Virus record (IMG/VR): IMGVR_UViG_3300017779_000125
Location: 1 to 26,422 of that record
DNA length: 26,422 bases
Origin: a virus
Direction: 5' to 3' (one strand)
Position 1 is the stretch's first letter. The number at the start of each line of letters is the position of its first letter. The notes beneath the pieces are model-generated. The model was not told the DNA's origin, ran no database searches, and saw nothing but the letters and a program-made list of their open reading frames with translations. A program made the position numbers and the translations under genes. Below, one piece after another: positions 4,577-6,312 of this stretch.

Positions 4577-5329
4577 ATGGCAAAAACATTATATTATGAT
4601 TCGGGTGGATTATTAGAGGCAACCATTAACGATGGTACATATTCTGGAACTAGTTGGAGTGATTCTGCAAGTATGACCAACGAATCCCGGTTAGTAGATC
4701 AATCTATATCATCAGCAGTTACTGATTTTAATAATGCCGATGCTTTAAAGATAACATTCCCAACATCAACTGCTCTTGATTTTGTTGCCTTATATTTTAG
4801 TGCATCAGAAACAGATAACATCTCATTATATAAATTAGTAGCAACGAACACATTTAGTTCTGCAATAGACATTACATCAGATTTTTCTGCTGGTTGGACA
4901 GTTGGGGAGTTTAGTTCTGCATCTACAACCGATTGGCATTTAGCATCTACAAGTGGAGATGTTGCAAACCTTACTGAATTCATTGTAGGAAGCAAATTAG
5001 CGTTTGAAGTACAGCCAGATGTAGGGATCGGTGAACAAGAGATATTCGGTTCAGATGTGAAAACTTCTATAGGTGGCGTAGAATACGCTACAAAGAAACA
5101 TAGTTCTAAATCCACATTCTCATTGAACTTTAGCAATATATCCCAAACCTTTAAAAATAACCTACAATCATTTGAGCAATCTGTTCAATCTTATAAAAAA
5201 TTCATCTATTCGGAGGATGGAACTACTGGGCCATTTCACTATGTGAGATTGGACTCACCTATTCAATTTGCTGAAGTAGCATTTGAACGATATTCTGCAT
5301 CCTTCACCTTGAGAGAACAACTCTCATAA
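4577..5329 (+). CDS. Tail tip-associated protein, last gene of the late unit
   Basis: 250-aa protein starting one base after the stop of the large tail protein. It is Ser/Thr-rich and beta-like. The C-terminal half (about residues 150-250) has an aromatic-rich stretch ending in a short FTLREQLS tail. It is followed within 15 nt by a rho-independent terminator, marking the end of the late transcript. The position suggests a distal tail or baseplate component. I do not recognise a family. Confidence 0.5.
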   Translation: MAKTLYYDSGGLLEATINDGTYSGTSWSDSASMTNESRLVDQSISSAVTDFNNADALKITFPTSTALDFVALYFSASETDNISLYKLVATNTFSSAIDITSDFSAGWTVGEFSSASTTDWHLASTSGDVANLTEFIVGSKLAFEVQPDVGIGEQEIFGSDVKTSIGGVEYATKKHSSKSTFSLNFSNISQTFKNNLQSFEQSVQSYKKFIYSEDGTTGPFHYVRLDSPIQFAEVAFERYSASFTLREQLS

Positions 5330-5340
5330 TTCCTGTCTAC

Positions 5341-5372
5341 AAAGCCGGTATTAATTTATCGGCTTTTTTTCT
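5341..5372 (+). terminator. Rho-independent terminator of the late unit
   Basis: Stem AAGCCG / CGGCTT around a 12-nt AT-rich loop, followed by a run of T (5364-5370). It sits 12 nt after the last tail gene and directly before the early promoter, so it separates the late and early units. Confidence 0.9.
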
Positions 5373-5400
5373 TTGACATCTCATTGTTTTTGTTTATACT
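5373..5400 (+). promoter_or_regulatory. Strong sigma70-type early promoter
   Basis: TTGACA at 5373-5378, a 16-bp spacer, and TATACT at 5395-5400. It lies immediately after the terminator, in front of the block of small and replication genes. The expected transcription start is about 5406-5408, which is also where the 12-bp inverted repeat of the structured leader begins. Confidence 0.85.
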
Positions 5401-5406
5401 TACAAC

Positions 5407-5518
5407 GATGAGACAATTAAATAACATACATTTTGATACAATAGAGGGAGCATCAGCCCATCAGGGCGAAATTGTCTCATCCCAATTAGCTCCCTCTGTA
5501 TCACAAAAGGATGAGAAA
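5407..5518 (+). ncRNA. Structured 5' leader RNA, candidate translational switch
   Basis: Four complementary segments can be seen. Helix A pairs 5407-5418 with 5470-5481 (12 bp, perfect). Helix B pairs 5435-5439 plus 5443-5451 with 5489-5502 (14 bp, 3-nt bulge). Helix C is GCCC-ATCA-GGGC at 5456-5467. Helix D pairs 5475-5482 with 5509-5516 (8 bp), and the latter contains the AGGA Shine-Dalgarno of the ATG at 5519. A and D compete for the same loop segment, and either one forms a pseudoknot with B. Regulation of the first early gene is inferred. No known riboswitch class was recognised. Confidence 0.65.
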
Positions 5519-5716
5519 ATGATGCTCACTTTAGAAAGAAATCAGACCAAAAAAGAAAAAAATTGGAATGATACAGCTCTTAACATAATGACTAGAAAAA
5601 ATAATACTGTTACAGTTGAAACTATATACAGATATGCACCTACTAAAAAAAGAACCATGACCTATCCAGAGTTTAAGGATTGGAGACTTGATATATTAAA
5701 AGAAGGGGGTAAGTAA
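5519..5716 (+). CDS. Small early protein, unknown function
   Basis: 65-aa Lys- and Thr-rich soluble protein, first gene of the early unit. The ATG at 5519 is preferred because AAAGGA lies 8 nt before it. An in-frame ATG at 5408 would add 37 residues, but it coincides with the predicted transcription start and would be leaderless; those 111 bases are better explained as structured leader RNA. The C-terminal half contains a basic stretch around YAPTKKRTMTYPEFKDW. The stop region (KEGGK end) forms the SD of the next gene. I do not recognise a family. Confidence 0.6.
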   Translation: MMLTLERNQTKKEKNWNDTALNIMTRKNNTVTVETIYRYAPTKKRTMTYPEFKDWRLDILKEGGK

Positions 5717-5717
5717 G

Positions 5718-5963
5718 ATGGAAATGACAGATGCTTTTATTAGGAACATTACAGATGACTTTGCTTGTGGGCTTTCTGATGATACTCATAATTTTGAAGA
5801 TATAAATGATTTACTAGCTGATAAAGATGAGTTGATTGCTTATACAAAAAGAATGATACGATTTAACACTACTATAATGGCAGATTCACATAATGCATTT
5901 TTATACTGCTCAAGGATTAAATGCTATAAATCTTTCATAGAAAAAAATGAAGGGGGTAAGTAA
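5718..5963 (+). CDS. Small early protein, unknown function
   Basis: 81-aa acidic protein with a strong SD (AAGGGGG) formed by the end of the previous gene. The N-terminal half is Asp-rich and the C-terminal half has Cys and Lys residues (YCSRIKCYKSF). It ends EGGK like the preceding protein, because the same 19-bp junction sequence is present at both gene ends. No membrane segment or known motif. Confidence 0.6.
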   Translation: MEMTDAFIRNITDDFACGLSDDTHNFEDINDLLADKDELIAYTKRMIRFNTTIMADSHNAFLYCSRIKCYKSFIEKNEGGK

Positions 5964-5964
5964 G

Positions 5965-6312
5965 ATGAAAGATAATAAAACTAGAATGTTAATTAGTGGT
6001 ATGAGTTGGGAGTCACAGGAAACTGTGGCTCTCAAGAATGTATATGCTCAAATTCAATCGTTCTATCAGCATACTGAACTCAACCTCGATGATGTAGGTA
6101 AGAGCGAGATTCTGGGCGAATTAAAGGCATTATCAGACAAGATAGAGCATTTAATTAGATACACCGGGGATGAAATGGATAGATTGGTTGAAAGAGATTC
6201 TAAAATCAAGAAAACTTGTATGGGATGTGAGTCTGATAAAACATATTATTGTAATACTTGTATGATAGACATAGAGAAGGAAGATGAAAGATTACATTCG
6301 CATTCATGTTAG
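5965..6312 (+). CDS. Small protein with C-terminal zinc-finger-like motif
   Basis: 115-aa protein. The ATG at 5965 is chosen because the GGGGG SD lies 10 nt upstream; an in-frame ATG at 5947 lies inside the end of the previous gene. The N-terminal 80 residues look helical. The C-terminus has CMGC, CNTC and a closing HSHSC, a spacing like a small treble-clef or B-box zinc-binding module. It overlaps the next gene by 29 nt. A DNA- or protein-binding role is possible but not shown. Confidence 0.6.
   Translation: MKDNKTRMLISGMSWESQETVALKNVYAQIQSFYQHTELNLDDVGKSEILGELKALSDKIEHLIRYTGDEMDRLVERDSKIKKTCMGCESDKTYYCNTCMIDIEKEDERLHSHSC

Follow-up and report, generated by a model that had tools for sequence, protein, structure and literature searches.

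The first early gene of an uncultivated phage is preceded by a leader in which two stretches of the predicted RNA, its 5' end and the Shine-Dalgarno (SD) region, are complementary to one and the same internal segment. This raises the question whether the leader is a genuine RNA control element and, if so, what it may control. The window, which is the whole stretch of DNA analysed, is an entire IMG/VR virus record of 26,422 bases. It carries phage genes for a terminase large subunit, a major head protein, a DnaD-like helicase loader, a polymerase exonuclease and a ParB/DNA methyltransferase. No similar phage record was found by searches with the DNA of the window and with its tail-like protein, and the bacterial genomes searched gave no match. 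The terminase matched 760 records, all at less than 60% identity, the best of them (about 38%) from gammaproteobacterial phages.

Setting and parts of the leader

The leader (5407-5521) is situated between a gene at 4577-5329, called tail-like from its position alone and without a family match, and the first early gene (5519-5716, + strand), of which the start is ATG 5519 or 5522. The upstream late operon with the tail-like gene ends at an intrinsic terminator (5341-5370, + strand) with a 10-bp stem (5341-5366) and a T tail, AAAGCCGGTATTAATTTATCGGCTTTTTTT. This terminator is also present in the related loci L011-L014, L016, L019, L020 and L028. The same leader-version phages conserve a site, TTCCTGTCTA or CTGTCTA, which in the window is located at 5329-5339, directly behind the stop of the tail-like gene and outside the terminator stem. 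After the terminator follows a sigma-70-type early promoter, TTGACA-16-TATACT (5373-5400, + strand), which the sequence-only reading had called near-consensus; it matches the consensus at 11 of 12 positions and predicts transcription to start at G5407 or A5408. L016, L239 and L235 have diverged upstream of +1 except that the −10 box is still in its position, and identity begins at the G of GATGAG. Divergence upstream of G5407 and none from G5407 onward agrees with the predicted transcription start near this position, which the same reading had assumed.

The 5'-terminal segment of the RNA (5S, 5407-5418, + strand), GATGAGACAATT, contains the terminal AUG (5408) and shows perfect 12-bp complementarity to AATTGTCTCATC at 5470-5481. 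The latter belongs to the shared anti-segment (AS, 5470-5482, + strand), AATTGTCTCATCC, whose alternative partners are 5S and the Shine-Dalgarno segment (SDS, 5509-5516, + strand), GGATGAGA; the AS:SDS pairing is 8 bp long and is formed by TCTCATCC at 5475-5482. AS is enclosed by P2, a 14-bp helix with one 3-nt bulge (AAT) between GATAC-AAT-AGAGGGAGC (5435-5451, + strand) and GCTCCCTCTGTATC (5489-5502, + strand). The hairpin P3, GCCC-ATCA-GGGC (5456-5467, + strand), pairs GCCC at 5456-5459 with GGGC at 5464-5467. All pairings proposed before (12 bp, 14 bp with a bulge, GCCC/GGGC and 8 bp) were recovered base for base at their coordinates, and the proposed competition of the 5' end and the SD region for one partner is borne out by the complementarity of both to AS. 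The final 7 nt of SDS are a copy of the first 7 nt of the RNA. No further copies of 5S were found in the window.

This geometry is far beyond chance. The minimum free energy of the leader, with pseudoknots left out, has a z-score of −4.0. When the leader was shuffled 5,000 times with its dinucleotides preserved, a 12-bp 5'-end helix never occurred; the longest such helix averaged 4.7 bp, and a 5' helix of at least 7 bp together with a 7-bp SD helix on one common partner appeared once. The whole plan was also scanned for, as a −10 box, a 5' RTG, a 10-nt reverse complement 40-140 nt downstream, an SD-type mimic and a start codon, in 4.18 Mb counting both strands, from loci of mixed choice of which many are unrelated. 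All 21 matches, which overlap, lie at the leader locus of the window phage or its relatives and none elsewhere. A 14-mer pattern scan proved unspecific, with at least 120 stretches, mostly unrelated, and was dropped.

Covariation in three sequence families

The tail-like protein, the first gene and the first 20 nt of the leader served as queries for relatives. Thirteen leaders of the same plan, the window and 12 relatives, fall into three sequence families. Family A1 consists of the window, L011, L012, L013, L014, L016, L239 and L235 and has GATGAGACAATT as 5S, AATTGTCTCATC as AS and GGATGAGA as SDS. Family A2 (L019, L020, L213 and L216) has GATGATAACC, GGTTATCATC and GGAGATGATA in these places, the last pairing with TATCATCTCC over 10 bp, and family A3 (L028) has GATGATAGTAG, CTACTATCATC and GATAGTAGTA (10 bp). 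In families A1, A2 and A3, respectively, the 5S:AS pairing measures 12, 10 and 11 bp and the AS:SDS pairing 8, 10 and 10 bp. The SD lies inside the exclusive pairing in every family, and the plan of an SD that copies the 5' end is the same in A2 and A3, with other letters.

The three segments change together among the families, and pairing across families is lost. Duplex energies within families are −16.9, −15.3 and −15.9 kcal/mol for 5S:AS and −13.0, −15.6 and −12.9 kcal/mol for SD:AS, against −5 to −11 and −4 to −9 kcal/mol, respectively, across families. Over the 13 leaders, 147 of 156 cells of the 5S:AS alignment are paired and five pairs are changed on both sides, whereas the best slid control reached 90 cells. 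Inside A1, 5S is invariant; it is exchanged jointly with AS in A2 and A3. Because 5S, AS and SDS are nearly invariant within A1, their covariation comes from the comparison of the three families and represents at least two replacement events, not a large number of changes that arose independently. With this reservation on number, the covariation in related phages that had been proposed as a check was found.

The helices that frame AS covary as well. The letters of the long helix differ among A1, A2 and A3, and its bulge is missing in A2 and A3. Within A1, two pairs of P2 are compensated (T-A to C-G and A-T to G-C), one of them in L013 and L235. P3 occurs as GCCC/GGGC, GGCT/AGCC, GCTA/TAGC and GCTC/GGGC, with double changes at three of its four pairs among the A1 relatives. 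Together, P2 and P3 show covariation at six of 29 alifold pairs. Changes in the leader cluster in loops or come as compensating pairs. In L239 (697-814), an indel of −1 before AS is followed by one of +1 after it, so that AS is shifted by one base and both pairings and the reading frame are kept. Two exclusive pairings, one of them over the SD, are preserved by selection, with compensatory changes, as is characteristic of an SD-pairing translational switch. Judged from these alignments, the leader is very probably a real and undescribed RNA control element in an uncultivated phage group.

The same words could in principle be DNA. GATGAGA occurs at +1, +64 (inverted) and +104, and a concerted replacement of three copies is also expected when a phage repressor acquires a new specificity and its operator sites follow. 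P2 and P3, however, covary outside these repeats, the third copy falls exactly on the SD in all families, and the split version described below covaries with other letters, both where it matches the RNA 5' end and within its stems. The use of G-U pairs on the + strand (P2 of A2, and L235) favours RNA rather than DNA as the selected molecule. Repressor sites are for these reasons a very improbable explanation.

Nor does the element resemble a described RNA class. The sequence-only reading had recognised no known riboswitch class, and Rfam 15 at the gathering cut-off returned no match for the window, in accordance with it, and none for 11 related loci with a split or double hairpin. At relaxed thresholds the best match scored 29.2 bits against a cut-off of 47 and was on the opposite strand. 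A hammerhead candidate (15.8 bits against 48.5, partial) was rejected, as GATGAG and CGAAA are not connected by a stem II and GAAA is missing from A2 and A3. Long structured leaders with exclusive pairings are typical of riboswitch expression platforms, and a ligand-binding riboswitch or a thermosensor was considered for this reason. Besides the missing Rfam match, no unpaired pocket is conserved among the families: the loops vary freely, and what the three families share is complementarity and layout only, not a conserved ligand-binding core. With no such pocket, and with the P2 bulge absent from A2 and A3, a metabolite riboswitch is not favoured, and we give explanations of this kind very little weight. 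No description of the leader element was found in the literature searched, most subscription journals lying outside that search.

The frame from the 5'-terminal AUG and the exchangeable first gene

A feature new to the earlier reading is that the frame of AUG5408 is open through every leader, apparently without conservation of its amino acids. In the window this leader ORF (5408-5518, + strand) comprises 37 codons and is in frame with the first early gene. An ATG is located at +1/+2 of the predicted transcription start in 13 of 13 leaders, and its frame contains no stop in any of them, against two to six stops in the other two frames. Shuffled leaders kept the frame open in fractions of 0.15, 0.18 and 0.20 for the three families; with 15-20% per family, all three would be open by chance in about 0.5% of cases. 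In A1 the frame continues into six different first genes, through several 3-nt indels. It stops in A2 at TAATG, overlapping the gene start, and in A3 just upstream of the start.

The leader might then simply be coding, with the first early protein translated leaderless from the terminal AUG, a conserved N-terminal extension of 37 residues and incidental helices. The open frame in all 13 leaders, its continuity with six A1 first genes and its survival of 3-nt indels and of the compensated −1/+1 pair in L239 speak for this. The substitutions do not: no synonymous excess is observed (two synonymous to 25 non-synonymous in the A1 comparisons, about neutral in A2), and the changes sit in loops and in compensating pairs. 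The frame also ends at or just before the gene start in A2 and A3, and orthologues of the first gene have no such extension. We consider a coding leader improbable. Coding from ATG 5408 had been named as a finding that would overturn the RNA interpretation; the open frame was found, the codon-level conservation was not. We read the frame either as one maintained so that ribosomes can pass, or as coding for an N-terminal extension without strict sequence. Since it is open in 13 leaders while the peptide is unconserved, an RNA switch and ribosome passage from the terminal AUG are both possible. In E. coli mRNAs with a 5'-terminal AUG and an SD, 70S ribosomes are known to load at the AUG, and some of these AUGs affect the downstream gene (PMC4965119).

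The leader is not tied to the gene behind it. From +1 onward it is nearly invariant, with the promoter upstream and the gene downstream replaced. The first early genes of 20 relatives are mutually unrelated, except those of the window and L011; in addition, the start of the L014 gene equals that of L012. The same leader ahead of unrelated first genes makes it a portable module and the first gene an interchangeable slot. Orthologues of the first gene of the window in L004 and L005 match only from residues 38 and 33 on and begin behind a short leader of another kind; complementarity at these two loci was at most partial. The element therefore does not belong to that gene. The earlier proposal of a switch for the first early gene does not hold as a specific link, because different phages have unrelated genes behind the leader.

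Two observations concern the early genes themselves. The slot (5519-5716 in the window and the first early genes of L009-L239) is hypervariable behind a conserved leader and possibly holds accessory or anti-host genes. A junction, AGGGGGTAAGTAAGATG, recurs between early genes at 5703-5721 and 5945-5967 of the window (96% over 23 nt); through this repeated junction and related ones in the relatives, many small early proteins end in GGK.

The split version, known systems and a proposed mechanism

A second set of related phages, also new to the earlier reading, carries a split version of the element with c4/IsrK-like complementarity. In twelve loci (L009, L018, L021, L022, L026, L027, L223, L224, L228, L229, L232 and L242) the early RNA leader is only 33-37 nt long, start codon included, begins with RTG and lacks the insert. 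Instead, these loci carry a hairpin behind the tail-like gene and ahead of the early promoter; it consists of an outer stem of 8-10 bp, an inner stem and a loop, after which comes a short single strand. Eight of its 15 stem pairs are compensated (alifold). The single strand is complementary to the 5' end of the early RNA over 9-12 bp in 12 of 12 loci; in L026 the segment ends with the GTG of this RNA. The loop is complementary to the early SD over 6-8 bp in seven loci, L009, L018, L223, L224, L027, L228 and L229 (ATGGAGTT/AACTCCAT; TTGGAG/CTCCAA), while in L021, L022, L026, L232 and L242 the best SD match is weak or lies outside the loop. Here too the partners covary: ATG starts stand opposite TTATTCAT and GTG starts opposite ATTCAC, and position 8 of the early RNA is A, T or C opposite T, A or G. 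A consensus scan found no terminator on the + strand between the split hairpin and the early promoter. A Bacteroidota-type promoter was considered for the split group and dropped, since the sites match sigma-70 spacing.

Two further layouts were noticed. L015 (4750-5100) has two tandem hairpin elements, of which the second has GTTGTTGTT opposite AACAACAAC of its early leader; for the ACTCCAT loop of the first no target was found in the DNA examined, and the complementarity in L015 is at most partial. In L024 and L025, after position 4753, the same tail-like gene is followed by neither element and, by eye, by an apparent tRNA and integrase-like sequence, possibly of a temperate relative.

In the phylogeny of the tail-like protein, loci with the split layout and loci with the leader layout are interleaved, and at least three changes are forced by well-supported branches, although recombination between the tail gene and the leader could also cause this. 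The interleaving suggests an alternative for the window as well, and so does the equivalent hairpin of the relatives, which lies outside the early transcript, ahead of the early promoter, and has two-part antiparallel complementarity to the 5' end and often the SD of the early RNA. In this alternative the AS hairpin would be released or processed as a small RNA and would act mainly in trans, c4/IsrK-like, on further copies of the early mRNA by pairing at their 5' end and SD. The hairpin of the window, however, lies between 5S and the SD of one transcript, so that a partner in cis is always available, and neither a terminator behind it nor a known processing site was found. Action in trans in the window phage is for us an unlikely though serious alternative. 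For the split hairpin, the complementarity suggests antisense repression of the early mRNA, possibly in trans; the hairpin may be a separate RNA or belong to a longer transcript.

Several known systems work alike. By its pairings the leader is comparable to IsrK/c4 and to the exclusive leaders of the hok/aapA type, and by the tests made it is a member of none of them. In the Gifsy-1 IsrK/orf45/anrP system alternative leader structures are combined with a trans sRNA and an upstream ORF, orf45, which is conserved in nucleotides but not in amino acids and whose stop overlaps the next start (PMC4825925). Shared with it are a phage leader, alternative structures over the ribosome-binding site, complementarity between a hairpin RNA and an mRNA, an upstream ORF with nucleotide-only conservation and, in the TAATG of A2, the stop/start overlap (PMC4825925). 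IsrK differs in being a separate sRNA isoform that activates in trans (PMC4825925), whereas in the window the anti-segment lies inside the leader and has the SD and the RNA 5' end as competing partners. A relation to IsrK was not found, either in sequence or through Rfam. In the split version, as in c4 of P1/P7 and the P4 CI RNA, a structured phage RNA carries two short stretches of complementarity to the ribosome-binding region of its target. Such a pair of segments, as in the C4 antisense RNA (RF01695), was found in the split relatives only, toward the 5' end in twelve and from loop to SD in seven. C4 itself is processed by RNase P to about 77 nt. It has three stem-loops (P1-P3) with a' and b' loops, whereas the split element is built from a single outer stem with a single inner hairpin and, unlike c4, is directed at the 5' end and SD of the early operon. 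Rfam returned no C4 match in the window or in the 11 related loci. E. coli mRNAs such as ptrB and rcnR have an AUG at their 5' terminus, as is predicted for the leader, and an SD-led gene downstream; in the sections of the report used here, their 5' AUG is not described in an SD-competing pairing (PMC4965119). In the metastable hok and aapA mRNAs, leader and anti-SD segments set SD access through mutually exclusive pairings, as in the leader, but these are toxin genes with antisense antitoxins and 3' processing, and they have neither a pseudoknotted P2/P3 module nor a portable leader (PMC6733600).

The reading we favour, and hold to be probable though far from certain, is a translational toggle in cis that depends on the 5' end, with the late-operon hairpin of the split relatives as an antisense repressor of the early mRNA. 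The P2/P3 helix would present AS to either 5S or SDS. The nascent 5' end would meet AS before the SD is made, and with its longer helix in A1 and A3, 5S:AS would win by default. The SD would then be free and SD-led translation of the first gene ON, with the 5' end shielded and tied up together with its terminal AUG. If another factor, or a ribosome bound at the terminal AUG, occupied the 5' end, or if the 5' end were trimmed, captured by antisense RNA or not yet engaged, AS:SDS would form. This would close the SD and turn translation OFF, and the exposed 5' end with its terminal AUG would be accessible for leaderless initiation and for decay that depends on the 5' end. The two states have nearly equal energies, as required of a switch. 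With loops of only 6-7 nt crossing the helices, either pseudoknot may be incomplete. The topology is the basis for the proposed direction of the switch, and the assignment of the ON state, the control of translation and the candidate triggers are likewise proposals. The claim of two exclusive pseudoknots over the SD with one partner is upheld by the covariation of the three families, and the two-state translational switch added to it is kept as the best reading. The comparisons give the leader good support as an RNA element and moderate support as a translational toggle.

The exclusive pairings might also serve only to stabilise the mRNA. The element might act on decay, or on RNA polymerase as a put-like antiterminator, for which the HK022 put RNAs are the comparison, rather than on translation initiation. 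Its place at the very start of the early transcript would suit both roles, and pairing of the 5' terminus is known to hinder 5'-dependent decay and to stabilise other mRNAs (literature cited in PMC3997798). A second pairing that is conserved in all families and lies exactly on the SD is not required for either role, and both appear distinctly improbable as the sole function.

In the split version, the late-operon hairpin carries the complements of the early RNA 5' end and, in most loci, of the SD. As an antisense RNA it would repress the early mRNA and halt early translation late in infection. Under the cis toggle that we prefer, the window phage would have the same parts joined in one molecule. 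More speculatively, the mRNA may test both the integrity and the occupancy of its own 5' end and so set its translation mode and lifetime together, by a domain that has moved repeatedly between a cis leader and a late-operon antisense hairpin; we offer this as a tentative idea.

The finding would add an RNA control element, undescribed and compact in its definition, to the beginning of the early programme in a phage group of which no cultured members were found. It would link the RNA 5' terminus to SD access via one shared partner. With the same logic split over two genome sites in relatives, the change between control in cis and antisense control would be directly testable. Standing ahead of an interchangeable first gene, the leader would also serve as a translational switch that can be moved from gene to gene, and would help to find early operons among metagenomic phages.
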